This document shows positions 42,456 through 56,712 of a DNA stretch of 58,342 bases, one piece after another. The notes beneath the pieces are model-generated. The model was given only the letters and a program-made list of their open reading frames with translations. It made no database searches and had not been told where the DNA came from. Every line of letters starts with the position of its first letter. The first letter of the stretch is position 1. This DNA is from Alistipes sp. (GTDB lineage: Bacteria; Bacteroidota; Bacteroidia; Bacteroidales; Rikenellaceae), in NCBI GenBank assembly GCA_017624955.1, contig JAGAMA010000013.1, forward strand, positions 1-58,342, given 5' to 3'. Both the position numbers and the translations under genes were made by a program.

Positions 42456-44027
42456 TTAGAATGCGAAGTTGCAATTCTCCAGGCGCAGGTGCTGATTCTC
42501 ATGGCCCGAAAGTTCGGTTTTCAGCTTGCCGCCATCGACCGTAATGTGGAAATTCTCCAGTGTCAGGTTGCGCACATCGGTTACGCGGAACTCCTCTTTA
42601 TTGGTCACCACCTCGAAGTTGCGCAGCGTTACCCCATCGGCATCGACCATATCCACCACATAGGGCTTCGGCTGGGGCTTGTAGTGGCCGTAAGCCGACT
42701 GCGACTCATCGCGGCGCGTATCGGCCTTCACATGCTCAATCAGGATATGCTTGGCGGGGCTTTCGGGGATACCCTGCACATAGAGGAGCATGCGGCAGCC
42801 CTCCACCTCGATATCGCGGATCGTCACCCCACGGAACGAGGGGGTGAGGTGCGTGAGCGGGGGTGCGGGCAGACGCGAAGCCAGACCACCCACGAAATTT
42901 GCTGTGCCGAGCATCTCCCAGGCCATGGCCTCGGCCTCGGTCTTGAGGCGCACACGCTCGAAGTAGAGGTTCTCGCCACCACCACCGCGCGGACGGCGGG
43001 TCTTCAGACGAATACCTACGCGCGTACCCTCGCACACGCAGTCATGCGCATAGACATTACGGCACCAGCCGCCCGTCTCCGAGCCGACCGTAAGGCCGCC
43101 CATGCCTCGCAGCGAGAGACAGTTACGCACCACGATATTCTCCGAGGGACGACCTACGCGGTAGCCGAATTCGTTACGACCACCCTTGACGGCAATGTTG
43201 TCATCGCCGCAGTCCGTGGTCACATACTCCACCAGCACATAGCGGCAGCAGGTGATATCCACGCCATCGCCACAGGGCTGACCGAACGACGAAATGCTGA
43301 TACCGCGAATCACGACATTTTCGCAATAGACCGGAGCCACATTCCAGAAGGCGGTCTGCTCGAACGAGACACCCTCGAGATAGACATTTTTGCAGTTGAT
43401 CGGGCCGAAGAAGGTCGGGAGCTGGATCGCGCGCCCCTTCTTGCCATCGAAGATACGCTCCTCAACGGGGGTGTCGGGGTCAATCTCGCCATCGTTCTGC
43501 GGACGACCCTCCCGGATCGAACCACCCTTGGCAGGGCCGATCAGGCGACCCTTACCCGTCAGGGCAATGTTCTCCGCCCCGTTGGCATAGATGCAGGCTC
43601 CGAGCGAGTAGAGCTCCACACCCGCATTGGTCGTAAAGACCACGGGGAGGAAATCCTCCACCTCGCCGCTAAAGCGCACGGTCGTACCCTCCTCGGTGTG
43701 GAGTTCGACGTTGCTTTTCAGCGTGATACGTCCCGTCCAAAAGTCACCCTTCGCAAGCGTTACGCGACCTCCGCCCTGCTTCGAGAGGCGGTCGATCGCC
43801 TGCTGAATCTCGCGGGTCTGCATGCGACCATCCGTAGCAGGAAGAATCGTAATTTCACGGTCGGGGAAGACGGGCTTTTGGAGTTGCGGCATGTAGAACG
43901 GGGCCTCGATCGGGGCGATCGTCTCCGGAAGGCAGGCAGCACCCACCTCCTCGTGCGTAGGGATATGAACCTGGGCCGAGGCGGCAACCGTTACCAACCC
44001 CAGCAACAATGTCAGCAGTCGTTTCAT
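42456..44027 (-). CDS. secreted GH28-like (polygalacturonase family) beta-helix protein
   Basis: A 523-residue protein with a signal peptide (MKRLLTLLLGLVTVAASAQ) and a pectate-lyase-like right-handed beta-helix of the GH28 family. Catalytic aspartates are recognisable as D257 (GDGVDI) and D275/D276 (CGDDNIAVKGG); R340 and K342 form the RxK site. The GHG motif, whose histidine is otherwise strongly conserved, reads GMG at 308-310. It may therefore have altered specificity or activity. It starts 12 bp after the cyclophilin gene and is convergent with nrnA; a glycosidase operon lies divergently behind. Confidence 0.85.
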   Translation of the reverse strand: MKRLLTLLLGLVTVAASAQVHIPTHEEVGAACLPETIAPIEAPFYMPQLQKPVFPDREITILPATDGRMQTREIQQAIDRLSKQGGGRVTLAKGDFWTGRITLKSNVELHTEEGTTVRFSGEVEDFLPVVFTTNAGVELYSLGACIYANGAENIALTGKGRLIGPAKGGSIREGRPQNDGEIDPDTPVEERIFDGKKGRAIQLPTFFGPINCKNVYLEGVSFEQTAFWNVAPVYCENVVIRGISISSFGQPCGDGVDITCCRYVLVEYVTTDCGDDNIAVKGGRNEFGYRVGRPSENIVVRNCLSLRGMGGLTVGSETGGWCRNVYAHDCVCEGTRVGIRLKTRRPRGGGGENLYFERVRLKTEAEAMAWEMLGTANFVGGLASRLPAPPLTHLTPSFRGVTIRDIEVEGCRMLLYVQGIPESPAKHILIEHVKADTRRDESQSAYGHYKPQPKPYVVDMVDADGVTLRNFEVVTNKEEFRVTDVRNLTLENFHITVDGGKLKTELSGHENQHLRLENCNFAF

Positions 44028-44731: not shown

Positions 44732-47221
44732 ATGAAAATAACGAAACTTCTCATTTTTACAATGGCCCTTTTCGCGTGCGCGCCCGCAACACGAGCGCAC
44801 CACCGCGTGGAGGCAGGCCACCTGAAGCTGTGGTACAAGCAGCCGGCCGCGAACTGGAACGAGGCGCTGCCTGTGGGCAATGGTCGCCTGGGTGCGATGA
44901 TCTTCGGCACGGCTGATGACGAGCTGCTGCAGCTCAACGAGAACACCCTCTACAGCGGTGACCCCGAGAGCCGTTGGAGCGACCTGGACATCACCTCGAC
45001 CTACCCCGAAATGGTCTTGCTGCTCGAGAGCGGCAAATACCTCGAGGCGGCCGAGCTGCTCAAGCAGTGGACGGGCCGTCTGCATGAGTGCTACCAGCCC
45101 CTGGGCGATTGGCACATCCACGACTACCGGGGCGGTAAGGCGAAGAGCTACCGTCGCTACCTCGACCTGGAGCGTTCGGTGGCCACCGTGCAGTATGAGC
45201 GCGACAACTACCAATTCCGCCGCGAGATCTTCGCCTCGCACCCCGACCAGGTGATCGTCATGCGTCTGACGACAAACTGCCCCGTAGGTTGGGATATCGC
45301 CCTGCGACTCTCCTCGCCCCACCCCGTGACGACCAAGATCGATGCCCGCAAAGGCGTGCTCAAGATGGGTGGTCAGGCCCCGGGCCGTGTCGATCGTCGC
45401 AACTACTCCGACTTCGAGGCGTGGGGACACGAGGAGCGCCACCCCTACCTCTTCAACGAGGATGGTTCGCGCACGGGTAAGCCCCGCGTACTCTACGGCG
45501 AGGATATTGACCACCGCGGCATGTTCTTCGAGGGTCGTCTGGAGGTGCGCGTGTCGAATCCCAAGTCGATGACCGACCTGGGTGGTCAGCTCCGCATCCG
45601 TGGCGAGAAGGAGATTCTGTTGATCTTCTCGGCCGCCACGAGCTACAACGGCCCCTTCCGCAGCCCCTCGAAAGAGGGCGTAGATGCCGCCAAGAAGGCC
45701 GAAGAGGCACTGAAGAGCGTGCGCACGAAGTCCTACGAGACGATGCTTGCCGCCCATGTGGAGGATTATCAGTCGCTCTTCAACCGCCTTGCGCTGACCC
45801 TGCCGTCGGATCCCGAGGCCGAGCTGCTGCCCACCGACCAGCGCATCCAGCGCTTTGCGCGCCAATTCCGTGCCACGGGCGCACCGACCGACCAGGAGCT
45901 TGTGACGCTTCTCTTCCAATATGGCCGCTACCTGATGATCAGCGGTTCGCGCGAGGGAGGTCAGCCCCTCAACCTGCAGGGTATCTGGAACAAGGATCTC
46001 ATCCCCTCGTGGAATTCGGGCTACACGGCCAACATCAATATCGAGATGAACTACTGGCCCTCGGAGGTGGCCAACCTCTCGGAGTGCCACCTGCCCCTCC
46101 TCGAGATGATCAAGGAGTGCGCCGAGACGGGCCGCGAGACGGCGCGCGGGATGTACCACCGTCGCGGCTGGGTGGGTCACCACAACTGCTCGATCTGGCG
46201 CGAGACCTACCCCAACGATGGCGGTGCCGCCACGGTCTTCTGGCCGATGATGGGTGCCTGGTTCTCGTCGCACCTCTGGGAGCACTACGCCTACACGGGG
46301 GACAAGGAGTTCCTCACGAAGGAGGCTTACCCCGTGATGAAGGGGGCTTCGGAGTTCTTCCTCGACTGGATGATTCAGGACAAGGATGGTCACTGGATCA
46401 CCCCCGTCAGCACCTCGCCCGAGAATCTCTTTATCGTGCCGGGCACGGATCAAGCCTGCGGTGTTTCGCAAGGCTCGACGGGCGATATGTCGATGATCCG
46501 CGAGCTCTTCACGCGCACCGTGGCAGCTGCCGAGGTGGCCGGTGTCGATGCCCCGTTCTGCGATACGCTGCGTAACCGCCTGCAACACCTGCTCCCCTTC
46601 CGCGTGGGCGCTTTCGGTCGTCTGCAGGAGTGGAACAAGGATTTCATGGATCAGGATATCCACCACCGCCACGTCACGCACCTCGTGTCGCTCTACCCCT
46701 TCGGGCAGATCAACCCCTCGACCCCCGAGCTCTTTGCGGCAGCCCGCAAGACACTCGAGATTCGTGGTGACGAGGCTACGGGCTGGTCGAGCGGCTGGAA
46801 GATCAACCTTTGGGCACGCCTCCTGGATGGTGAGCGCGCCTACAAGCTCATCGGTACGCTACTGCGCCCCGTCGGCTTCGGCCCCGAGCAGGAGCAGTCG
46901 TCGGGTGGCGGTGTCTATATGAACCTCTTCGATGCCCATCCCCCCTTCCAGATTGACGGCAACTTCGGCATGACGGCCGGTGTCTGCGAGATGCTGATGC
47001 AGAGCCACGAGGGGATGATCCGCCTCATGCCCGCCGTACCGGCCGTTTGGCGTACGGGTTCGGTGCGTGGTCTGAAGGCGCGTGGCGGCTACACGATCGA
47101 CATGGCCTGGGAGGATGGCAAGATCACCGAGCTGAAGATCCACTCAGCAACGGGCAAGCGCTGCAAGGTCAGCTCGGCATGGGCGCTGCCCGAGGGCGAC
47201 TACTTCGTAAACTGCAAATAA
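44732..47221 (+). CDS. GH95 family alpha-L-fucosidase/alpha-L-galactosidase
   Basis: A secreted inverting glycosidase, first gene of the operon. The ATG at 44732 gives a signal peptide (MKITKLLIFTMALFACAPA) with a possible lipidation cysteine, and 829 residues. GH95 hallmarks are WYKQPAANWNEALPVGNGRLGAMIFG at the N-terminal domain (shown here only by its ends WYKQPA and GRLGAMIFG), QPLNLQGIWN, INIEMNYWPSEVANLSE, and IDGNFGMTAGVCEMLMQSHE. The family hydrolyses alpha-L-fucosides, and some members alpha-L-galactosides as in rhamnogalacturonan II chain A; specificity cannot be read here. Confidence 0.93.
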   Translation: MKITKLLIFTMALFACAPATRAHHRVEAGHLKLWYKQPAANWNEALPVGNGRLGAMIFGTADDELLQLNENTLYSGDPESRWSDLDITSTYPEMVLLLESGKYLEAAELLKQWTGRLHECYQPLGDWHIHDYRGGKAKSYRRYLDLERSVATVQYERDNYQFRREIFASHPDQVIVMRLTTNCPVGWDIALRLSSPHPVTTKIDARKGVLKMGGQAPGRVDRRNYSDFEAWGHEERHPYLFNEDGSRTGKPRVLYGEDIDHRGMFFEGRLEVRVSNPKSMTDLGGQLRIRGEKEILLIFSAATSYNGPFRSPSKEGVDAAKKAEEALKSVRTKSYETMLAAHVEDYQSLFNRLALTLPSDPEAELLPTDQRIQRFARQFRATGAPTDQELVTLLFQYGRYLMISGSREGGQPLNLQGIWNKDLIPSWNSGYTANINIEMNYWPSEVANLSECHLPLLEMIKECAETGRETARGMYHRRGWVGHHNCSIWRETYPNDGGAATVFWPMMGAWFSSHLWEHYAYTGDKEFLTKEAYPVMKGASEFFLDWMIQDKDGHWITPVSTSPENLFIVPGTDQACGVSQGSTGDMSMIRELFTRTVAAAEVAGVDAPFCDTLRNRLQHLLPFRVGAFGRLQEWNKDFMDQDIHHRHVTHLVSLYPFGQINPSTPELFAAARKTLEIRGDEATGWSSGWKINLWARLLDGERAYKLIGTLLRPVGFGPEQEQSSGGGVYMNLFDAHPPFQIDGNFGMTAGVCEMLMQSHEGMIRLMPAVPAVWRTGSVRGLKARGGYTIDMAWEDGKITELKIHSATGKRCKVSSAWALPEGDYFVNCK

Positions 47222-47242
47222 TCAAACTAAAACCACAATACC

Positions 47243-49183
47243 ATGAAAAAACAATTCCTTTTGGGTGCTCTGCTGCTCGCAGGTCTGTGTTGGACACCGA
47301 GCGCCGAGGCACAGCAAGTCATCGAGGCTACGCCCGAAACCTTCAACGAGGCCGTCACGGCGCTTCGCAAGGCGGTAAAGAAGCAGAAAGAGGATGTGGA
47401 GTTGCGCCTGCATGGCGGCACCTACTACCTCGCACAGCCGCTCGTGATCGACGAGTCGCTGGGTGGCAAAAATGGCAAGAGTGTGAAGATCGCCTCGGTC
47501 AAGGGCGAGGAGGCCATCCTGAGCGGTGGTGTCGAGATCAAGGGCTGGGAGCAGGTGCATGGCAATCTCTACAAAGCCCCGTTTAACCACGATCAGAAGC
47601 TCCGCACGCTCATCGTCGGCGGTAAGCGCGCCCGCATGGCCGGCATGAACGAGCCGGTGCAGGCCCTGGGCAGCTACGGCCAGATCGAGATCACGGGCGA
47701 GGAGTCGTGGGCCTTTGGTGCCGGTACGACCCCCGAGGGAATCCTCTTCGAGCAGAGCTCCGAGGTGATGCCCTACCGCAACCCCGAAGATGTGGAGCTG
47801 ATCCAGAACAATGTCTGGACCGAGAAGATCCTCTGCGCGGCCGATGTACACAAGTGGGGCAAGCAGATCGCCATCGAGCTGCAGCAGCCCTACTCGGCCA
47901 TTCTGAATTCGCTGGCTTGGGCCGGTAAGACGAAGTTCGAGGGTTCGTTCCTCATCCGCAACGCCTTTGAGCTGCTCGATGAGCCGGGCGAGTTCTACTT
48001 CGACCGCGCCGAGCAGACGATCTACTACATGAGCCACGGCGAGAATCCGGCCGATGTAGCCGTCATCGCCCCGATGACCGAGGGTCTGCTGCGCATCAAG
48101 GGTACGAGCTGCTCGTCGAACGTGGAGAACGTGACGATCGAGAACCTCACCTTCTCGTATGATGCCTGGAATCTGGTCGAGGTGGAGGGTTCGCACGGCT
48201 TCGGCGGCATTCAGTCGCTGGGTCTGGCGATGAAGTACATCCCCAACGGCAACTGGCACCCCACGAAGTACAACAGCGTGGATGTTCCCGAGGGTACGAT
48301 CCAGGTGGAGAATGCCACGGGTATCCGCATCCTGCGCAACAAGTTCCTGCACCTGGGTTCGGCCGTTTCGGTAAATCTCTCGAACGATGTAACGAACTCG
48401 GAGGTGATGGGCAACTTCTTCAACGACTGCCTGGGTAATGCCGTGGCCGTAGGTCACCCGCAGCACTACGAGATCGGCGATGGCGACGAGGGTGCCGTCT
48501 ATGCACCGGGCATCGAGGGCCTGTGCGAGAACATCAACATCTCGAACAACCTGATCCGCAACGTATCGCTCGACTTCCGCCAGGTGGAGGCCATCGTCGG
48601 TTTCTTCTGCAAGAGCGTGAAGATCGACCACAACGACATCTACGGCACGCCCTATGGCGCTATCGCCTTAGGTTGGTGGTGGGGCAATGCCGGCATTCCC
48701 GAGTCGAAGAACGCCGGTAACAACTCGATCAGCTACAACCGTTGCGGCCACACGCACACGATGCTCACCGACGGTGGTATTATCTACATGCTCGGCCGTC
48801 AGCCGGGTTCGGTGGCTCGTCGCAACTACGTCTTCGACGGTCCGCGTTGCATCTATCCCGATGACGGTTCGTCGGGCTGGCTTATCGAGGAGAACTTCGT
48901 CGTGAGCCTCTACCAGCTCTGGCTGCACCTGGATTCGGATCGCAACTACGACATCCTGATCCGCAACAACCATGTCAAGGACAACCGCTTCTGCAACAGT
49001 GGTAACGGCACGATCGTCGAGGGTACGAAGATCTACCGCAACATCCCCTTCGGCGATGAGGCGCTGGCGATCCAGGATGCTTCGGGTCTGAGCCACGAGT
49101 ACCATGACCTGATGCCGCGCCGCGAGTACGATCCGATCGTCGTGATCCCGACCGTAGGTGCCAAGCGCAAGGCGGTGTTTTAA
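47243..49183 (+). CDS. secreted right-handed beta-helix protein, GH141-like
   Basis: A 646-residue protein with signal peptide MKKQFLLGALLLAGLCW ending near AEAQ. The N-terminal part has the pattern seen in GH141 and related beta-helix enzymes: GGTYYLAQPLVI, then ILSGGVEIKGW, then LIVGGKRARMAG. The C-terminal two thirds are parallel beta-helix repeats (NISNNLIRNV, KIDHNDIYGTPYGAIALG, TDGGIIYMLGRQPGSV, YPDDGSSGWLIEENFVV). GH141 includes an alpha-L-fucosidase acting on rhamnogalacturonan II. Family membership is tentative; a polysaccharide lyase or epimerase role cannot be excluded. It starts 21 bp after the GH95 gene. Confidence 0.65.
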   Translation: MKKQFLLGALLLAGLCWTPSAEAQQVIEATPETFNEAVTALRKAVKKQKEDVELRLHGGTYYLAQPLVIDESLGGKNGKSVKIASVKGEEAILSGGVEIKGWEQVHGNLYKAPFNHDQKLRTLIVGGKRARMAGMNEPVQALGSYGQIEITGEESWAFGAGTTPEGILFEQSSEVMPYRNPEDVELIQNNVWTEKILCAADVHKWGKQIAIELQQPYSAILNSLAWAGKTKFEGSFLIRNAFELLDEPGEFYFDRAEQTIYYMSHGENPADVAVIAPMTEGLLRIKGTSCSSNVENVTIENLTFSYDAWNLVEVEGSHGFGGIQSLGLAMKYIPNGNWHPTKYNSVDVPEGTIQVENATGIRILRNKFLHLGSAVSVNLSNDVTNSEVMGNFFNDCLGNAVAVGHPQHYEIGDGDEGAVYAPGIEGLCENINISNNLIRNVSLDFRQVEAIVGFFCKSVKIDHNDIYGTPYGAIALGWWWGNAGIPESKNAGNNSISYNRCGHTHTMLTDGGIIYMLGRQPGSVARRNYVFDGPRCIYPDDGSSGWLIEENFVVSLYQLWLHLDSDRNYDILIRNNHVKDNRFCNSGNGTIVEGTKIYRNIPFGDEALAIQDASGLSHEYHDLMPRREYDPIVVIPTVGAKRKAVF

Positions 49184-49185
49184 CA

Positions 49186-49213
49186 AATTAAGAATTAAAA
49201 ATTAAAAATTAAG
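49186..49213. repeat. heptanucleotide array (AATTAAG type) inside the operon
   Basis: Four units: AATTAAG, AATTAAA, AATTAAA, AATTAAG. It begins 2 bp after the beta-helix gene's stop codon, within the 51-bp gap before the beta-propeller gene. Confidence 0.75.
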
Positions 49214-49234
49214 CATTTAAGTTTTTGAGATAGC

Positions 49235-50878
49235 ATGAAGGTCTTTCGTTATCTGCTGGTGAGCATGCTCTCACTGCTCACCCTCTCGGCCGCCGCGTCG
49301 AGCCACTATAAGGCTGCACCCTACCGCGTCACGAAGGGCGGTGCAACCTTCACCACCACCACCTACACGAACCCCTTCACGGGTTCGGACTGCAGCGTGC
49401 TGCAACTCACACCCGAGATTGACGGTCTGCAGGGCTTCCGCCTTGCCGTCAACGAGCAGGGAGCCATGCTGCCCGCCACCGTGGAGCTGCAGCTGCAGCG
49501 CTCGGGTAACCTGCTCGTAGCCGCCACCTCGAAGGAGGCGGTCGAGGCCGTAGCCTGGGGCAAGGGCAAGCTCAACACGACCCCCGCACTGAAGCGCGCC
49601 CTGCGCGTGACGGAGTGCGAGGTGATGGATATCTACGCCGTGCGCTTCGCAGGTGGCAAGCAGACGATCACGATCCCTGCGGGCGTGAAGGGTCAGATTG
49701 CCGTGGTAGGTTACACCTCCGCCACGAAGTTTGCCGGCACGGATGCCGCCTTGGAGACGGGCACCGATTACCCCTCGTTTGTCATCGAGGGTTTCTCGGA
49801 GAAGCCCGCCCTGTTTGAGATCATCGGCGGTCAGGATGACCCCGTGGTAAACGAGGGCATGCCCGGCACGGAGGGTATCCAGGGTGGTTTCGAGGGTGGC
49901 CAGATGATCAAGGTCGGCGACACCTACCACATGTTCCCCACCGAGCGCGCCGGCGAGATTGGCAAGCCGGCCTATTACGACCGCATCAAGACCCGCATCG
50001 GCCACTGGACCTCGAAAGACGCGATCCATTGGGAGCGTCAATCGACCCTCTACCAGTCGAGCGGCAAGTATGCCATCTCGCACTACGACCACCCGATGAA
50101 CGACCGTCGTGCCGCCATCTGGTCCTACATGCCGATCTTCAACAAGGAGAAGAACCGCTGGCAGGGCCACTACCTGGCCTACACCTGCGACTTCGATGTA
50201 GCCCCCAACCACTCGTTCGGCCGCATCTGGCGTTGTGAGTCGGTAGTCGAGGGTATCGAGGGTATCGGTGGCCCGTACCGCGACTGCGGCATCGTCATCG
50301 AGCCGGGTCTCGACAGCCAGCTCTGGGAGGGTCGTCAGGGCGTTGCTTCGTTCTTCCCCTACCAGGTGGGCGATAAGTGGTACGGCTTTATCAGCGGTGC
50401 CTACCCCTACCAGACCAAGGCCGACTACCCCTTCGGTGGCAAGCCGACCCACTGGTATGTGGGTCTGGCCGAGTCGGACAACTTGGAGGGTCCCTTTACG
50501 CGCATGAAGGAGCTGAACCCCATCACCTCGATTCACCCCCGCTTTGTGGAGAACCCGATCGTATCGCAGCTCCCGAACGGTCTCTATATCGCCGTATTTG
50601 ACGGTGGTCCGGAGTGGTTGAAGTTGCCGAACATGATCGCCTACACCCTCTCGAAGGATGGTATCCACTGGAGCGAGGCCCACTACCTACCGATCGACAC
50701 GAAGGTCAAGAAGTGGTGGCACACGATGCGCACGCCGCTGGGTCTGATCCCCGAGGGCGACGATATCTATACGATTGTCTATGCCGCCGTGAACAACGAC
50801 ATGCGCTTCCACCCGATGGGTATGGTGCAGGTGAAGCTCAATCGCGAGGTGCTGGACGAGATTACGAAGAATCTGTAA
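49235..50878 (+). CDS. secreted beta-propeller glycoside hydrolase-like protein, candidate Dha hydrolase
   Basis: I do not recognise the exact family. The 547-residue protein has a signal peptide (residues about 1-21), an N-terminal beta-rich domain (about 22-190) and a C-terminal five-bladed beta-propeller in the style of GH43/GH32/GH117 enzymes, with blade motifs TSKDAIHWERQ, LAESDNLEGPF and LSKDGIHWSEA. Arginines placed at propeller positions (KTRIGHW, NDRRAAIW, GRIWRCES, HPRFVENP, HTMRTPLG) could bind a carboxylated sugar. In this operon, hydrolysis of an acidic 3-deoxy sugar such as Dha is a plausible role; as I recall, the known Dha hydrolase family GH143 is also a five-bladed propeller. 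Confidence 0.6.
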   Translation: MKVFRYLLVSMLSLLTLSAAASSHYKAAPYRVTKGGATFTTTTYTNPFTGSDCSVLQLTPEIDGLQGFRLAVNEQGAMLPATVELQLQRSGNLLVAATSKEAVEAVAWGKGKLNTTPALKRALRVTECEVMDIYAVRFAGGKQTITIPAGVKGQIAVVGYTSATKFAGTDAALETGTDYPSFVIEGFSEKPALFEIIGGQDDPVVNEGMPGTEGIQGGFEGGQMIKVGDTYHMFPTERAGEIGKPAYYDRIKTRIGHWTSKDAIHWERQSTLYQSSGKYAISHYDHPMNDRRAAIWSYMPIFNKEKNRWQGHYLAYTCDFDVAPNHSFGRIWRCESVVEGIEGIGGPYRDCGIVIEPGLDSQLWEGRQGVASFFPYQVGDKWYGFISGAYPYQTKADYPFGGKPTHWYVGLAESDNLEGPFTRMKELNPITSIHPRFVENPIVSQLPNGLYIAVFDGGPEWLKLPNMIAYTLSKDGIHWSEAHYLPIDTKVKKWWHTMRTPLGLIPEGDDIYTIVYAAVNNDMRFHPMGMVQVKLNREVLDEITKNL

Positions 50879-50893
50879 AAACAAAAATAGAAG

Positions 50894-51796
50894 ATGAGTA
50901 AGAGAAAGTATGCAGGCGTGGTCGTACCGATGGCCACCCCTGTCAAGGCCGGTTCGGTCGATTTGGAGGCCGTCGAGAAGATCATCCGCTCGTTTGCCGA
51001 GGCGGGTGTCGATGTCCTGGTGATGGGTACGACGGGCGAGGGCAACCTCGTTCCGCAGGCCGAGGGTATCGAGATGGTCGCTACGGCGGTGCGTGCCGCC
51101 GAGGGTAAGATTACGATCTACGCCGGCGTGACGGGCCTCTGCCTCAAGGAGCAGGTGGCCCAGATCAAGGGTTTCAAGGAGGCGGGTGCCGATGTGGCCG
51201 TGGCGATTCTGCCGAGCTACTACGCCCTCACCGAGGAGCAGATGGTGGCCTACTACACCGCTCTGGCCGAGGAGTCGGTGCTGCCCGTGATGCTTTACAA
51301 TATCCTCGCCACGACCCACCTTTCGATCCCCGTGGAGGCGGTGCGCAAATTGGCCGCCCACCCCAATATCGTAGGTCTGAAGGACTCGGAGCGCGACCTC
51401 GAGCGCATGGAGCAGTGCATCGCCATCAAGAATGAGGCGGAGGATTTCGCCTACTTCTGCGGCTGGGCTGCCCAGTCGGCTCACTCGCTGGAGCTGGGTG
51501 CTGATGGTATCGTGCCCTCGACGGGTAACTTCGTGCCGAAGCACTTCCAGAAACTCTATGAGGCTGCCGTAGCAGGCAACATGGAGGAGGCAAACCGCCT
51601 GCAGAAGCTCACCGACGAGATGGCCAAGGTCTATCAGCAGGGCCGCCCCTTAGGTAAGCAGCTCGCCGCCCTGAAGTGTATCATGCAGGGTATCGGGTTG
51701 TGCGGAACGGAGATGTTCGCCCCCCTGACCGAGCTTGCGGAGGAGGAGTATCGAACCATCCGCGAACAGATTGCCCAATTTGACCTCAACCTGTAA
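50894..51796 (+). CDS. DapA-family class I pyruvate aldolase
   Basis: A 300-residue TIM-barrel protein of the dihydrodipicolinate synthase/N-acetylneuraminate lyase family, whose members form a Schiff base between a lysine and pyruvate. The residues are present: MGTTGEG (44-50), Y135 (VMLYNIL) and K163 (IVGLKDSERD). Authentic DapA has an arginine shortly after the YN motif that binds aspartate semialdehyde; here the segment reads YNILATTHL, without it. It is therefore more likely an aldolase for a 2-keto-3-deoxy sugar acid. Operon position between the secreted hydrolases and the transporter supports a catabolic role. Confidence 0.85.
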   Translation: MSKRKYAGVVVPMATPVKAGSVDLEAVEKIIRSFAEAGVDVLVMGTTGEGNLVPQAEGIEMVATAVRAAEGKITIYAGVTGLCLKEQVAQIKGFKEAGADVAVAILPSYYALTEEQMVAYYTALAEESVLPVMLYNILATTHLSIPVEAVRKLAAHPNIVGLKDSERDLERMEQCIAIKNEAEDFAYFCGWAAQSAHSLELGADGIVPSTGNFVPKHFQKLYEAAVAGNMEEANRLQKLTDEMAKVYQQGRPLGKQLAALKCIMQGIGLCGTEMFAPLTELAEEEYRTIREQIAQFDLNL

Positions 51797-51829
51797 CCCC
51801 TAAAACCCAAACTTTTTCAAGAAACCACT

Positions 51830-53377
51830 ATGCATTGGATAGATATCACGCTGGTCATTGCCAGCATTGTATTTGTGATGCTCTTCGGTCTGAAGTTCGC
51901 CCACAAGCAGAACTCGACCGATAGCTACTTCGCCGCAGGCGGCTCGGTGCCGGCCTGGGCAATCGGTATGTCGATCTTCGCCACGCTCATCTCGTCCGTC
52001 ACATTCCTCGCCTATCCGGGTGCCGCCTACGGTGGCAGTTGGATCCTCCTGGTGCAGGGTCTAATGGTGCCGATTGTCCTGGTGGGTATGATCTGGTTTA
52101 TCGTACCCCTCTTCCGCAAGGCCATCAAACTCTCGACCTACGAGTATTTTGAGCGTCGTTTCGGCTTCGGTGCCCGTCTCTACGGCTCGATCGCCTTCCT
52201 GTTGACCCACTTCTCGAAGCTCGGTACGGTCTTCTTCCTCGTATCGCTCGCCATTTCGCAGTTCATGGGCTGGGATATCTACATGGTCATCGTCGTCATC
52301 GGTATTGCCGTGACCTTCATCACCCTGATCGGTGGTATGGAGGCCGTGATTTGGATGGATGTGATCCAGGGCTTTATCCTCATCGTGGGTGGTATCATCT
52401 GCGCGGCCCTGCTGCTCTTCACGCCCGAAGGCGGTCCGTCGGCCGTATGGGAGATTGCCATGCGCGACAACATGATCAACGTGGGCGAGTTCCACTGGAG
52501 TTTCGTGGAGCTGACCTTCTGGGTAATGGCCATCAACGGTGTCTTCTACGCCATTCAGAAGTATGGTACGGACCAGACGATCGTACAGCGCTACCTCACG
52601 GCCAAGGATGACCGCTCGGCCAAGCGTGCCGCCTACATCGGTGTAATGACCAGCGTGCCTGTTTGGACGCTCTTCATGTTTATCGGAACGTGCCTCTACG
52701 CCTACTACCAGATTGAGGGTGCCGAGGCGGTTGCCGGCATGAAGGCCGACGAGGTATTCCCCTACTTCATCGCCACGGAGTTGCCGATCGGTGTGAAGGG
52801 TCTGATCATCTCGGCCCTGGTGGCAGGTGCCATCTCGTCGCTCGACTCGGATTTGAACTGCTTTGCCGCAATCGGTGTACAGGACTACTACGTCCGCTTC
52901 CGTCCCGAGAGCACGGATCGTCAGCGCCTGGTATTGGGTCGTTGGATCGTCGGTCTGGCCGGTGTGGCTTCGATCGGTATCGCCTCGATCTACGCCTTCT
53001 GGGGTGGCGAGGGTATCCTCGGCGTGCTGTTTGGTCTCTACGCTATCTTCTCGTCGGGTATCGTCGGTCTGTTCCTGCTGGGTCTTTTGGTCAAGCGTGC
53101 CAACAAGCAGGGTCTGTGGGTCGGTCTTGTGGCCTGCATCCTCTTCACGGCTTATGCCGTACTCACCTCGTCGAAGTTCACGATCGACGGCGAGAAGCAG
53201 ATCCTTGTGGACCTCGGTGCCTGGAACTTCACGCACCACAAGTATATGTTGGGTGTCTACAGCCACCTGATCGTATTCTTTGTCGGTTGGGCCGCCTCGT
53301 ACCTCTTCCCCGCACCGAAGGTGGACGACAGCCTGACGATTTATGGTTATTTGAAGGAGCGCAAGGCCGCAAAATAA
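51830..53377 (+). CDS. sodium/solute symporter (SSS family)
   Basis: A 515-residue inner-membrane protein with about 13 hydrophobic segments of the LeuT-like SSS fold. N-terminal features are FAHKQNSTDSYFAAGG and ISSVTFLAYPGAAYGGSW, and SALVAGAISSLDSDLNCFAA in TM8/9 includes the conserved sodium-site serines. SSS members carry sugars, sialic acids and organic acids. Here it would import the sugar released by the secreted hydrolases, before the cytoplasmic aldolase. Confidence 0.9.
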   Translation: MHWIDITLVIASIVFVMLFGLKFAHKQNSTDSYFAAGGSVPAWAIGMSIFATLISSVTFLAYPGAAYGGSWILLVQGLMVPIVLVGMIWFIVPLFRKAIKLSTYEYFERRFGFGARLYGSIAFLLTHFSKLGTVFFLVSLAISQFMGWDIYMVIVVIGIAVTFITLIGGMEAVIWMDVIQGFILIVGGIICAALLLFTPEGGPSAVWEIAMRDNMINVGEFHWSFVELTFWVMAINGVFYAIQKYGTDQTIVQRYLTAKDDRSAKRAAYIGVMTSVPVWTLFMFIGTCLYAYYQIEGAEAVAGMKADEVFPYFIATELPIGVKGLIISALVAGAISSLDSDLNCFAAIGVQDYYVRFRPESTDRQRLVLGRWIVGLAGVASIGIASIYAFWGGEGILGVLFGLYAIFSSGIVGLFLLGLLVKRANKQGLWVGLVACILFTAYAVLTSSKFTIDGEKQILVDLGAWNFTHHKYMLGVYSHLIVFFVGWAASYLFPAPKVDDSLTIYGYLKERKAAK

Positions 53378-53385
53378 GAGAACCC

Positions 53386-54534
53386 ATGAAATTGATTACC
53401 TTACAACAACCCTCGCGCATCGTTCTGGGCGAGGGTGCTGCCGAGCGCTTTGCCGAAGAGTTCGCGGCGCACGGCTTTCAACGACTTTTCCTGCTCACCG
53501 CACCGCCGATTCGTCCGCTGATCGAGGGGATCCTCCAAAAGATCGAGGCGACGGGAGCTACGATTCAGATCTACGACCGCATCACGGCCGAGCCGGCCTT
53601 GGATGAGGTGGTAGGCATCATCGACGAGGCGCGCTCGTTCGGTGCCGACAGCGTGGCCGGTATCGGCGGCGGTTCGGTGCTCGACACGGCCAAGATTGTG
53701 GCCGCCTTCCTCAAGAGCAAGCAACAGGTGGCCGACTGCTTCGGCACGGGACTCATCAAGGAGCGCGGTGTATGGTGCGCCTGCCTCCCGACCACTTCGG
53801 GCACGGGTAGCGAGGTGTCGCCCAACGCCATTCTGTTGGATCGCGCCGAGAAGCTCAAGAAGGGCATCGTAAGCCCTTACCTCTTGGCCGATGCCGCCTA
53901 TATCGATCCCCTGCTGACGCTCACCGTACCGGCCAAGATCACGGCCGAGACGGGTATGGATGCCCTCTCGCACTGCATCGAGAGCTTCACGAATCGTCAC
54001 GCGCATCCCGTGGTAGATGCTTACGCCCTGCAGGGCATTGAGCTTATCGCCAAGAACCTGGAGCGCGCCGTGAAGAACGGGCAGGATCGCGAGGCGCGTG
54101 CCGCCCTTTCGCTCGGCAGCTACTACGGCGGTTTGTGCCTGGCTCCCGTGAATACGGCAGCCGTACACGCCCTCTCCTATCCGCTTGGTGGCGAGTACCA
54201 CATCTCGCACGGCTTGGCAAACGCCATCCTGCTGCCGCCCGTCATGCGCTTTAACCTCGAATCGAACCTCGAGAAGCACGCCGCCATTGCTCGCGCGATG
54301 GGTGTCGATTGCGAGGGCCTTACGACCGAGGAGGCCGCCAAGAAGGGAGTCGAGTTCGTAGCCGAGCTGGCTACGCGCTGCGGCATTCCCGCAACGCTCA
54401 CCGAGCTGGGTATCCCGCAGGACAAGGTGGAGGAGCTGGCCGATGCTGCGATGAAGGTGACGCGTCTGCTGGTGAACAACCCCCGCGAGGTGACGCGCGA
54501 AGATGCGATTGCAATCTATAACGAATTATACTAA
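53386..54534 (+). CDS. iron-dependent alcohol dehydrogenase
   Basis: A 382-residue group III dehydrogenase. The start is the ATG at 53386, 8 bp after the symporter; the frame is open far upstream but overlaps the symporter gene. The nucleotide loop is GIGGGSVLDTAK (92-103) and the metal ligands are D192, H196 (MDALSHCIES), H261 (VHALSYPLGG) and H275 (ISHGLANAI). Relatives reduce lactaldehyde, succinate semialdehyde and similar short aldehydes. In the proposed pathway it would reduce a four-carbon aldehyde acid to D-threonate. Confidence 0.9.
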   Translation: MKLITLQQPSRIVLGEGAAERFAEEFAAHGFQRLFLLTAPPIRPLIEGILQKIEATGATIQIYDRITAEPALDEVVGIIDEARSFGADSVAGIGGGSVLDTAKIVAAFLKSKQQVADCFGTGLIKERGVWCACLPTTSGTGSEVSPNAILLDRAEKLKKGIVSPYLLADAAYIDPLLTLTVPAKITAETGMDALSHCIESFTNRHAHPVVDAYALQGIELIAKNLERAVKNGQDREARAALSLGSYYGGLCLAPVNTAAVHALSYPLGGEYHISHGLANAILLPPVMRFNLESNLEKHAAIARAMGVDCEGLTTEEAAKKGVEFVAELATRCGIPATLTELGIPQDKVEELADAAMKVTRLLVNNPREVTREDAIAIYNELY

Positions 54535-54540
54535 AAAGCT

Positions 54541-55575
54541 ATGAATAACTTACCGATTTTAGCCATTACGATGGGTGATCCCGCGGGTGTAGGCCCCGAG
54601 ATTATCGCCATGTCGCTCGCCCAGGAGTATCCCTATACGGTTTGCCGCCCCGTGGTCATTGGCGATGCCAAGATGATGGAGTTAGGTGTAAAGTCCGCCA
54701 AGGTGGAGCTGCAGGTTCGTCCGATCGAGCAGGTGGCCGATGCAAAGTATGAGCGTGGCGTAATCGATGTGCTGGACCTGAAGCTGATCGACCCCGCAAC
54801 CTTCGCCTATGGCGAGGTGCAGGCGCAGTGCGGTCATGCCGCCTTTGAGGCAGTACGCACGGCTATCGAGCTGGCCATGAAGGGCGAGGTGGATGGTACG
54901 GTGACCGCACCGCTCAACAAGGAGGCACTGCATGTGGCAGGGCACAACTTTGCCGGCCACACGGAGATCTACGCCCACTACACCGATACGAAGAAGTATG
55001 CCATGCTGCTGGCCGACGATAAGATGCGTGTAATCCATGTTTCGACCCATGTTTCGCTGCGCGAGGCGTGCGATCGAGCCAAGAAGGAGCGCGTAATCGC
55101 CGTGACGGAGCTTATCCGCGAGGCCTGCCTGAGCTTCGGCATCGAGAACCCGAAGATCGGCATCGCGGGTCTGAATCCCCATGCCGGCGAGGGTGGTCTG
55201 TTTGGCGACGAGGAGATCCGCGAGATCATCCCCGCCATCGAGGAGATGAAGGCCAAAGGGTGGAATGTGGATGGTCCCGTGCCGCCCGATTCGCTCTTCT
55301 CGCGTGCCCGCTCGGGCCAGTTCGACGGCTGCGTAGCGATGTACCACGACCAGGGCCACATCGCCTTTAAGGTGGGTGGCTTCGAGTGGGATCGTGAGAC
55401 GCAACGCATGGTGGCCGTGAAGGGTGTGAACATCACGCTCGGCCTGCCGATTATCCGCGTTTCGGTCGATCACGGTACGGCCTTCGATGTGGCAGGTAAG
55501 GGCATCGCCAACCCCGATGCACTCCTCATGTCGATCGAGTACGCCGCCCTGATGGCCAAGAACCGTAAAAAGTAG
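54541..55575 (+). CDS. PdxA2-like 4-phospho-acid-sugar dehydrogenase
   Basis: A 344-residue PdxA family NAD-dependent oxidative decarboxylase. Family segments are TMGDPAGVGPEI, the metal-binding histidine region AGHNFAGHTEIYAHYT, GLNPHAGEGGLFGDEE and MYHDQGHIAFKVGGF. PdxA proper makes vitamin B6, but the direct fusion in transcript with a DUF1537 kinase (0-bp gap) is the signature of PdxA2. PdxA2 converts 4-phospho-D-threonate or 4-phospho-D-erythronate to dihydroxyacetone phosphate and CO2. No other pyridoxal genes are nearby. Confidence 0.9.
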   Translation: MNNLPILAITMGDPAGVGPEIIAMSLAQEYPYTVCRPVVIGDAKMMELGVKSAKVELQVRPIEQVADAKYERGVIDVLDLKLIDPATFAYGEVQAQCGHAAFEAVRTAIELAMKGEVDGTVTAPLNKEALHVAGHNFAGHTEIYAHYTDTKKYAMLLADDKMRVIHVSTHVSLREACDRAKKERVIAVTELIREACLSFGIENPKIGIAGLNPHAGEGGLFGDEEIREIIPAIEEMKAKGWNVDGPVPPDSLFSRARSGQFDGCVAMYHDQGHIAFKVGGFEWDRETQRMVAVKGVNITLGLPIIRVSVDHGTAFDVAGKGIANPDALLMSIEYAALMAKNRKK

Positions 55576-56712
55576 ATGCTGACACTCGTTATTGCCGATG
55601 ACCTGACGGGGGCCGCCGAGATTGCCGGTGTGGCCCACCGTTTGGGTTGTCGTGTGCGCCTCACAACCGCACTCGAACAGCTCACACCGCAGGATGAGGT
55701 GGTGGTCATCGCCACCGATACCCGCTCGATGACGCGCGAGGAGGCCCTGCAGGCAACGCAAGAGGTAATCGCACAGATTGCCCGCCTCGGCCTGCGCCCC
55801 GATCGCCTCTTCAAGAAGACCGACTCGGTGCTGCGCGGCCATGTGCGGTGCGAACTGGAGGCGTTGCAGGCGCTGAGCTATCAGCGCGCGCTGCTCCTAC
55901 CGGCCAACCCCTCGAAGGGGCGACTGATCCGCCGCCGCATCTACTCGATCGGAGGCACTCCCCTCACGCGCACCCTTTTTCGACACGATCCCGAGTTCCC
56001 GGCAACCACCTCGGATGTGGTACGCCTGGTGGGGGGCCATGCACCTTATATTTCTACGCGCACGCGACGCAAGACCCTTGCGGAGGGCGTTACGCTCGGC
56101 GAGGTGGGTTCGATGGAGGATTTGCGTTACTATGTAGCGCGATTCGACAGCCCCGAGGTGGTGCTGGCCGGTAGTTCGGACCTCTTTCAATGCCTTGTGG
56201 AGCACCACGGCAGGCAGCCGGTCGAGCGCCCCGCCTTTGCAGGATTCGGCACTCGCCGTTCGCTCATCGTGCTGGGAAGCACGGCACGTCACAACCTCCT
56301 GGAAGAGCCCTTCTTTCAGCGCAACCGCGTAGCGATCGCGCCGATGCCCGATGAGGTCTTCGCAGGGGGAGCAACCGAGGGTTGGGTGCGTGAGGCACAA
56401 CGTCTCCTCACCGAACACGACTCGCTCCTGCTGCGCATTCCGCAACAGATTTCGCACGACGAGGGGCGCGCCCTGCGACTTCGCCACCAGATGGCCGAGA
56501 CGGTCCTGGCACTCCTCGCCGATGGTGAATTTGAGGAGGTAATCATCGAGGGAGGTGCTACGGCCTTCACGATTTTGAAGGGGCTTCGGTGGGGCGAATT
56601 GACCATTGCCGATGAGATTGCCCCGGGTGTTGTGCGCCTGCACCACGCCCAAAGCGATACACACCTTACATTCAAACCCGGCAGCTACCCCTGGGGAGCT
56701 TGCTTTCGGTAG
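55576..56712 (+). CDS. DUF1537 four-carbon acid sugar kinase
   Basis: A 378-residue member of the acid-sugar kinase family defined by the D-threonate, D-erythronate and 3-oxo-tetronate kinases. The N-terminal substrate domain has VIADDLTGAAEIAGVA and FKKTDSVLRGHVRCELEAL; the C-terminal nucleotide domain ends GGATAFTILKGL and GVVRLHH. Its ATG directly follows the PdxA2 stop codon, so translation is coupled. It would phosphorylate O-4 of the four-carbon acid used by PdxA2. Confidence 0.92.
   Translation: MLTLVIADDLTGAAEIAGVAHRLGCRVRLTTALEQLTPQDEVVVIATDTRSMTREEALQATQEVIAQIARLGLRPDRLFKKTDSVLRGHVRCELEALQALSYQRALLLPANPSKGRLIRRRIYSIGGTPLTRTLFRHDPEFPATTSDVVRLVGGHAPYISTRTRRKTLAEGVTLGEVGSMEDLRYYVARFDSPEVVLAGSSDLFQCLVEHHGRQPVERPAFAGFGTRRSLIVLGSTARHNLLEEPFFQRNRVAIAPMPDEVFAGGATEGWVREAQRLLTEHDSLLLRIPQQISHDEGRALRLRHQMAETVLALLADGEFEEVIIEGGATAFTILKGLRWGELTIADEIAPGVVRLHHAQSDTHLTFKPGSYPWGACFR

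Follow-up and report, generated by a model that had tools for sequence, protein, structure and literature searches.

A conserved five-gene cassette of Alistipes and other Bacteroidales as the probable catabolic pathway for Dha, a sugar of rhamnogalacturonan II

Results and Discussion

The window analysed here is one whole contig of 58342 bp (JAGAMA010000013.1) from the 2.1 Mb draft genome of an Alistipes sp. (G000), and it harbours an operon of eight plus-strand genes at positions 44732-56712. The last five genes encode a DapA-type aldolase (DAPA), a sodium:solute symporter of the SSS family (SSS), an Fe-dependent alcohol dehydrogenase (Fe-ADH; FEADH), a PdxA paralogue (PDXA) and a DUF1537 kinase (KIN). 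Judged from the protein families and their genomic company, this cassette is probably a catabolic pathway which leads from Dha (3-deoxy-D-lyxo-heptulosaric acid), a sugar of the plant polysaccharide rhamnogalacturonan II (RG-II), to central metabolites. The cassette is conserved well beyond the genus. In the window it is preceded by genes for three secreted-type proteins, a glycoside hydrolase (GH) of family GH95, a GH141-like protein and a third protein which we named PROP. A preceding sequence-only reading had described eight co-directional genes spaced by 0-51 bp, and its coordinates and gaps (21, 51, 15, 33, 8, 6 and 0 bp) were confirmed. Since the eight genes are 61-99% identical among congeners, we regard all of them as real genes. 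For FEADH, the ATG at 53386 was chosen as the best start placement; in the locus L009, a 99% identical FEADH gene overlaps an upstream-extended PDXA frame.

Conservation and variants of the cassette

Of the 36 other genomes of the genus, four carry the kinase, and the same four show the complete order GH95-GH141-PROP-DAPA-SSS-FEADH-PDXA-KIN. The distant genome G042 shows the arrangement LacI-FEADH-DAPA-PDXA-KIN-SSS-SusC-SusD. Conservation thus applies to the five-gene cassette as a unit, and the three secreted-type proteins were added locally. A search with the KDSER pattern of the aldolase yielded 234 named aldolase loci, the best 80 of which were considered. All five genes are in view in 55 of them and all except FEADH in six; another 15 show nothing but DAPA or DAPA-SSS, and four are incomplete in other ways. 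The symporter stands beside the aldolase in 77 of the 80 loci (the exceptions are L172, L199 and L225). Gene order varies across cassettes; gene content holds. Seven of the 15 loci with DAPA or DAPA-SSS only had room downstream and were examined (the other eight lie near contig ends), and in all seven genomes a FEADH-PDXA module was found apart from the aldolase, with KIN in view in six and with a FEADH 58-65% identical to the cassette type.

The nearest named relatives are nine loci (L156-L164) from metagenome-assembled genomes (MAGs) of Alistipes/Rikenellaceae, six of them titled as goat, water buffalo or water deer gut; four of the nine were taken to be the same genomes as the four congeners. 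PROP and the cassette are present in all nine, and the GH141 gene lies on the opposite strand in L161-L164. Two records titled as Paenibacillus and Staphylococcus MAGs (L190 and L200) hold Bacteroidales-like cassettes and are probably mislabelled.

Co-occurrence with GH143

In the sampled Bacteroidales the cassette implies GH143, less so outside the order, and GH143 does not imply the cassette. The order sample comprised 393 Bacteroidales genomes. A strong kinase match was found in 12 of them, spanning nine genera and eight families, and all 12 have GH143, as compared to six of the other 381. The corresponding hypergeometric p values, 8e-19 by genome and 3e-12 by genus, are naive in that shared ancestry is ignored, and are only indicative. 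Four weak kinase genomes out of 16 (G212 at 4e-24; G154, G264 and G050 at 1e-5 to 1e-7) were dropped and counted among the 381. GH143 was called at an identity of at least 52% over its domain, which gave 18 genomes; 61 of the 79 matched genomes were dropped, having GH142 only, short stretches or a GH143 of 39-40% identity (G058 and G212). Furthermore, 50 genomes were selected by way of the cassette aldolase, and GH143 was detected in every one of them. They represent 50 of the 59 loci listed as cassette-bearing; the kinase is in view in 48 and the complete set of five genes in 44, and contig ends truncate the cassettes of L174 and L177. The co-occurrence predicted from the window thus held for GH143 in both sets. 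GH95, GH141 and PROP are beside the cassette in only nine of the 80 named loci, all of Alistipes/Rikenellaceae.

A similar picture emerged for GH138 of RG-II degradation. The same five of the 37 genomes of the genus hold the kinase and a GH138 over the cut-off, and in a set of 61 relatives GH138 was over the cut-off in seven genomes and the kinase present in six, all six being shared and the seventh being G055.

Some proteins are only 39-42% identical to the BT1020 type of GH143 (G100:C17:213154, G201:C3:69618, G058:C14:39295, G212:C101:7734, G668:C12:400269 and G509:C5:178826), and from their sequences a second GH143 subgroup is possible. The one in G509, a 40% relative, is encoded approximately 9 kb from the kinase. 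Sulfatase or sialidase-type BNR proteins were noticed near cassettes outside the order (L323:2447-6430 and L324:18548-19690).

Physical linkage to RG-II genes

Contig C15 of the window's genome encodes GH138, GH137 and an aceric acid hydrolase over the cut-off, and also GH78, GH106 and GH28. A further C15 protein matches BT1020 (5mqr), which we take to be a single protein carrying both GH142 and GH143 activities, from residue 25 to its end with 1803 bits. With GH138, GH137, the aceric acid hydrolase and the GH143/GH142 type protein, the genome shows the gene set of an RG-II utiliser. According to a passage in PMC6811678, GH143 releases Dha, and a beta-L-arabinofuranosidase together with the Dha hydrolase dismantles side chain D of RG-II; BT_1020 appears as GH142 in PMC7263609.

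In two genomes this chain-D pair precedes the cassette on the same strand, and this neighbourhood supports the link to Dha that had been proposed from the window. In G244 (L099) the run is GH143-GH142-DAPA-SSS-FEADH-PDXA-KIN-GH28, all on one strand, and its GH143/GH142 pair scores 774 and 755 bits against the two halves of BT1020. G144 (L100) shows an identical run apart from a LacI regulator, which separates GH142 from DAPA. Looser linkage was found elsewhere: in G100 the kinase lies approximately 16 kb from GH143, the cassettes of L201, L206 and L217 have a GH137-GH138 pair nearby, DAPA of L178 is preceded by a homologue (57%) of the aceric acid hydrolase, GH106 homologues (51% and 35%) are located within 10 kb of the cassette in L196 and L230, and GH138 is behind FEADH-PDXA-KIN in L348.

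In some Prevotella, apiose-type genes adjoin the cassette. A split transketolase, an FGGY kinase and a fucose-isomerase-type gene, presumably the pathway for D-apiose, which we take as another RG-II sugar, are located upstream of it in the Prevotella-type loci L166:4314-9182 and L176:1038-10008; the fucose-isomerase-type gene is present in 12 of the 80 named loci. Apiose and aceric acid were considered as substrates of the cassette itself and were rejected, since no cassette step fits their chemistry. Further, a 464-aa protein without Pfam match (L039:6428-7822) has relatives of 36-52% identity in RG-II loci of several other genomes.

The proposed pathway

We infer the substrates, the products and the transport step from the observed genes and their families, the conserved unit, the GH143 co-occurrence and the GH143-GH142 linkage in two genomes. 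Dha would be freed outside the cell by GH142 and then GH143 activities from another locus of the genome, and the free sugar would be imported by the symporter. The DapA-type aldolase would cut it between C3 and C4, yielding pyruvate and 2,3-dihydroxy-4-oxobutanoate, the aldehyde of which would be reduced to D-threonate by the Fe-ADH. The DUF1537 kinase would then form D-threonate 4-phosphate. Finally, the PdxA paralogue would oxidise C3 of this compound, and the product would lose CO2 to give dihydroxyacetone phosphate (DHAP). Overall, Dha would be converted to pyruvate, DHAP and CO2 at the expense of one ATP, and the C4 branch would be redox neutral because the NAD(P)H used by the Fe-ADH would return in the PdxA step.

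The stereochemistry was re-derived by hand. The D-lyxo configuration has C4 left, C5 left and C6 right, and after cleavage, reduction and turning of the C4 acid end for end C2 is left and C3 right, which corresponds to D-threonate. The succession from aldolase to C4 aldehyde acid, D-threonate and DHAP plus CO2, as originally suggested, is supported.

The aldolase and a second DapA-symporter pair

The cassette aldolase is a member of the DHDPS family with the GTTGE, Tyr-Asn and Lys motifs of a class I aldolase, and its predicted structure has a predicted local distance difference test score (pLDDT) of 90.8. Lys163, positioned by family alignment, is presumably the Schiff base residue; the catalytic roles of the three motifs are likewise assumed from general knowledge of the family. 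The protein scored below the cut-off of the dihydrodipicolinate synthase (dapA) equivalog (169 of 206 bits).

Two further DapA-family copies exist in the genome. One of them, DAPA2, lies together with its own SSS inside the RG-II locus (L040:12231-14658, G000:C15). Within the order sample, the DAPA2 type (identity of at least 53%) occurs in 12 of the 18 genomes with GH143 and in 10 of the 12 with the cassette, and an SSS adjoins it in six of seven loci examined (G000, G020, G033, G104, G144 and G244; not G100). Quick trees, one of which included one bad row (L128_x), separate the cassette aldolases from DAPA2 and from four further copies. Around the active site the cassette type is distinguished by KDSE(R/K) and TT(H/Q/K)..S, while DAPA2 has KDSS(A/S)(N/D) and a different loop; in the named loci the invariance of KDSER is partly selected, as the KDSER pattern was used to find them. 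As an idea from the alignment, Arg167 of KDSER (Lys in G042) is a candidate ligand of the distal carboxylate.

According to PMC12168206, Dha and Kdo (3-deoxy-D-manno-octulosonic acid) are constituents of RG-II and in plants are said to occur only there. In the window's genome, these two 2-keto-3-deoxy sugars of RG-II face two DapA-symporter pairs. The cassette was assigned to Dha and DAPA2 left for Kdo because only Dha of the two gives a C4 acid upon aldol cleavage. The DAPA2-symporter pair is therefore a candidate Kdo module.

Kinase and PdxA

Both DUF1537 Pfam domains of the kinase are above their cut-offs, placing it in this family, and the motifs ADD.TGA, KK.DS.LRG and KPGSY are common to 13 aligned members. 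The pair of DtnK and PdxA2 converts D-threonate to DHAP and CO2. DUF1537 kinases, including DtnK, which act on D-threonate are treated in PMC10971088 and a catabolic PdxA2 in PMC9997740. The cassette PdxA passes the general pdxA model (340 of 290 bits). It is the second PdxA of the genome, the other being encoded at G000:C21. Indeed, two PdxA copies were found in 12 of 12 cassette genomes and one copy in six of six GH143 genomes without the cassette; the second copy of G147, G247 and G393 is a remote one (84-91 bits).

The kinase diverges much faster than PdxA, the identities among congeners being 61-80% and 94-98%, respectively. Elsewhere in the window's genome (G000:C41, L017:9540-11788), a beta-keto acid cleavage enzyme (BKACE) adjoins a long DUF1537 kinase. 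The same two families are also located beside the cassette in L176, perhaps for another odd RG-II sugar acid.

Alternative explanations

Several observations weigh against the Dha pathway as drawn. In the window's genome the cassette and GH143 are on separate contigs, and most of the 80 named loci contain no RG-II enzyme within the examined flank. The kinase reaches only 85.4 of 450 bits, over residues 3-160, with the curated D-threonate kinase model DtnK, its best NCBIfam model, and PdxA 356 of 583 bits with the curated PdxA2 D-threonate 4-phosphate dehydrogenase model; its score is slightly better with the general 4-hydroxythreonine-4-phosphate dehydrogenase model PRK03743 (379 of 470 bits). 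We keep the functional proposal that the kinase may work like DtnK, not its membership in the equivalog. Six loci carry DAPA-SSS-PDXA-KIN without Fe-ADH, and the only Fe-ADHs in their genomes are 22-26% identical, with no close copy. Therefore, the reduction to D-threonate is performed by another enzyme there or does not proceed as drawn. Moreover, it is by chemical logic that Dha and Kdo were divided between the two aldolases.

The distribution in a phylum-wide sample of 395 genomes also speaks against a strict tie to GH143. Its five cassette genomes (one of them, G654, without a symporter beside the cassette) include two with clear GH143, one being the window's own, one with a 40% relative and two without; outside the order, two of the four other cassette genomes thus lack GH143. 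Conversely, the kinase is absent from 17 of 19 GH143 genomes. These figures are based on 19 of 50 matched genomes, kept at an identity of at least 47% over the GH143 half. They exclude six of the 11 genomes with a kinase match, namely G681, where kinase and PdxA occur without DapA, and G826, G660, G780, G542 and G730, where the match is weak. In the order sample, six of the 18 GH143 genomes had no DUF1537 match. GH143 bacteria without the cassette may have a different route for Dha or may cede the sugar to other organisms. Taken together, the initial interpretation is partly supported: the link to RG-II and Dha and the logic of the pathway stood, while release of Dha by the operon did not, and the Fe-ADH step is not universal.

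It is unlikely, although worth considering, that the cassette has several substrates among the ulosonic or ulosaric acids, including Dha and also algal ones, and that outside the order some cassettes are fed by sialidase-type hydrolases instead of GH143; this explanation overlaps with the proposed Dha pathway. In green algae, scales and theca have been reported to contain Dha (PMC10762512). GH143 is missing from two cassette genomes, one of which (G552) has a sulfatase and a BNR sialidase-type protein near the cassette, and G509 has a BNR protein near it. However, only three such genomes were seen, and the sole neighbouring open reading frame (ORF) scanned in G654 is not of the sulfatase/BNR type. 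We consider it improbable that the cassette serves Kdo, which the aldolase would split into pyruvate and D-arabinose, the other enzymes processing D-arabinose or D-arabinonate in a C5 analogue of the tetronate route. The specificities of kinase and PdxA are only assumed, and GH143 co-occurrence alone cannot separate the two sugars because both are RG-II constituents (PMC12168206). Nevertheless, the cassette follows the chain-D enzymes in two genomes, D-arabinose requires no tetronate kinase, and the second DapA of most cassette genomes, usually with its adjoining SSS, would be spare.

Still less probable is that kinase and PdxA are a general D-threonate/D-erythronate pair which has been clustered by chance with an aldolase, a symporter and an Fe-ADH of an unrelated sugar acid pathway. 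In its favour, G681 has DUF1537-PdxA without aldolase and with a KdgT permease, and aldolase and FEADH-PDXA-KIN are separate in seven genomes. Yet all seven keep the cassette-type FEADH next to PDXA, and content is constant in the majority of aldolase loci despite changes in order. The operon resembles nan operons, in which a lyase of the DapA family is combined with an SSS symporter, and the aldolase matches N-acetylneuraminate (Neu5Ac) lyase models weakly. We regard a sialic acid lyase operon as hardly credible, since these scores (100 of 382 and 120 of 281 bits) are below the cut-offs, neither an N-acetylmannosamine (ManNAc) kinase nor an epimerase is present in the operon, and the co-occurring enzyme is a plant pectin hydrolase. 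A fucose route, with L-fucose released by GH95/GH141, the aldolase acting on 2-keto-3-deoxy-L-fuconate and the Fe-ADH on lactaldehyde, was rejected because the operon contains no sugar dehydrogenase or dehydratase and kinase and PdxA would be left without a role.

Coming back to the Dha pathway, we lean towards a broader picture in which many gut and rumen Bacteroidales would possess a dedicated redox-neutral Dha relay paired with a DapA-symporter Kdo module, and in which some Bacteroidota of other classes would use the relay on Dha-type acids, e.g. of algal scales.

The secreted-type proteins and neighbouring genes

GH95 comprises alpha-L-fucosidases and galactosidases, and the GH95 protein of the operon (Table 1) is probably such an enzyme acting on RG-II or other pectin. 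It is 40% identical to the GH95 of a G201 locus (L110/L111) with GH143 and an aceric acid hydrolase homologue. The following protein belongs to GH141 by its insertion domain and its match to BT_1002. PROP has no Pfam match at E 0.01. It had been called a propeller protein and was thought to release Dha. The predicted structure did not confirm a propeller (mean pLDDT 51.9, with an unusable C-terminal part), and no match to the GH143 structure BT1020 (5mqr) was found at E up to 1, so that PROP was rejected as Dha hydrolase. Release of Dha by the operon is thus not supported, the GH143 of this genome being on another contig. The N-terminal domain of PROP (window 49391-49783) is like the C-terminal domain of BPa0997 and weakly like the end of the GH138 model. 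Most likely, the targets of the three proteins are different linkages of RG-II or pectin, and their genes adjoin the cassette since all serve the same polymer. The GH28 gene on the opposite strand adjoins the operon in all four congeners too. The ten other ORFs of the contig that were scanned are for the most part housekeeping genes.

Table 1. Genes of the operon and the adjoining GH28 gene in the window
Feature	Position	Strand	Evidence
GH95 family protein	44732..47221	+	Pfam GH95 catalytic 565 bits; signal peptide-like N-terminus
GH141-like protein, secreted type	47243..49183	+	GH141_M 40.4 bits (cut-off 27); best PDB match BT_1002, 5mqp, E 1.7e-35
PROP, two-part secreted-type protein	49235..50878	+	residues 53-183 match C-terminal domain of BPa0997, E 4.5e-4
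DAPA, DapA-type class I aldolase, proposed Dha aldolase	50894..51796	+	DHDPS PF00701, 185 bits
SSS, SSS-family sodium:solute symporter, proposed Dha uptake	51830..53377	+	SSF PF00474, 142 bits
FEADH, Fe-dependent alcohol dehydrogenase, proposed C4 aldehyde acid reductase	53386..54534	+	PF00465 133 bits; C-domain PF25137 197 bits
PDXA, PdxA paralogue (PdxA2-type), proposed D-threonate 4-phosphate dehydrogenase	54541..55575	+	PF04166, 352 bits
KIN, short DUF1537 kinase (378 aa), proposed D-threonate 4-kinase	55576..56712	+	SBD_N 118.5 bits (cut-off 25), NBD_C 33.3 bits (cut-off 28.3)
GH28 galacturonidase-like protein	42456..44027	-	PF00295; alpha-galacturonidase BT4155 model 219 of 800 bits

Significance

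The proposal is of interest for several reasons. Few of the plant polysaccharides that serve gut bacteria are as complex as RG-II. How the polymer is taken apart has been described; for the intracellular fate of Dha no account was found. No paper on Dha catabolism or linking DUF1537/PdxA2 with RG-II was found in a literature search which left most subscription papers outside its coverage, so that this absence is not proof. For the fate of Dha, five genes, a proposed sequence of their reactions and many carrier genomes can now be named. In addition, candidate functions are put forward for one DapA subfamily and for a DUF1537 subfamily that had been unassigned. Last but not least, standards for Dha are described as lacking in PMC12168206, and the cassette enzymes could give an enzymatic assay for this sugar.

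Comparison with known systems

The closest parallel is the catabolism of D-threonate by DtnK and PdxA2, in which the same two enzyme families stand side by side and which ends in the reactions proposed here. In contrast to it, the cassette kinase is shorter, divergent and below the DtnK cut-off, and the pair would be fed by aldolase and Fe-ADH and not by imported D-threonate. Non-phosphorylative pathways for 2-keto-3-deoxy acids also use DapA-family aldolases, for example on 2-keto-3-deoxygluconate (KDG) or 2-keto-3-deoxy-L-fuconate, and share with the cassette a class I aldolase yielding pyruvate and an aldehyde, which is then reduced or oxidised. The cassette differs from them by its C4 acid branch and by having no upstream sugar dehydrogenase or dehydratase; neither would be expected for a substrate that is a 2-keto-3-deoxy sugar from the outset. 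With NanA/NanT it has in common the DapA-fold lyase and the SSS symporter, but it is without ManNAc enzymes, scores below the lyase models and is found in a plant pectin context. Finally, the RG-II degradation system of Bacteroides (BT1020 and its partners) has its counterparts in the window's genome with GH143/GH142, GH137, GH138 and the aceric acid hydrolase; whereas that system accomplishes depolymerisation, the cassette would determine the intracellular fate of one of the monosaccharides.

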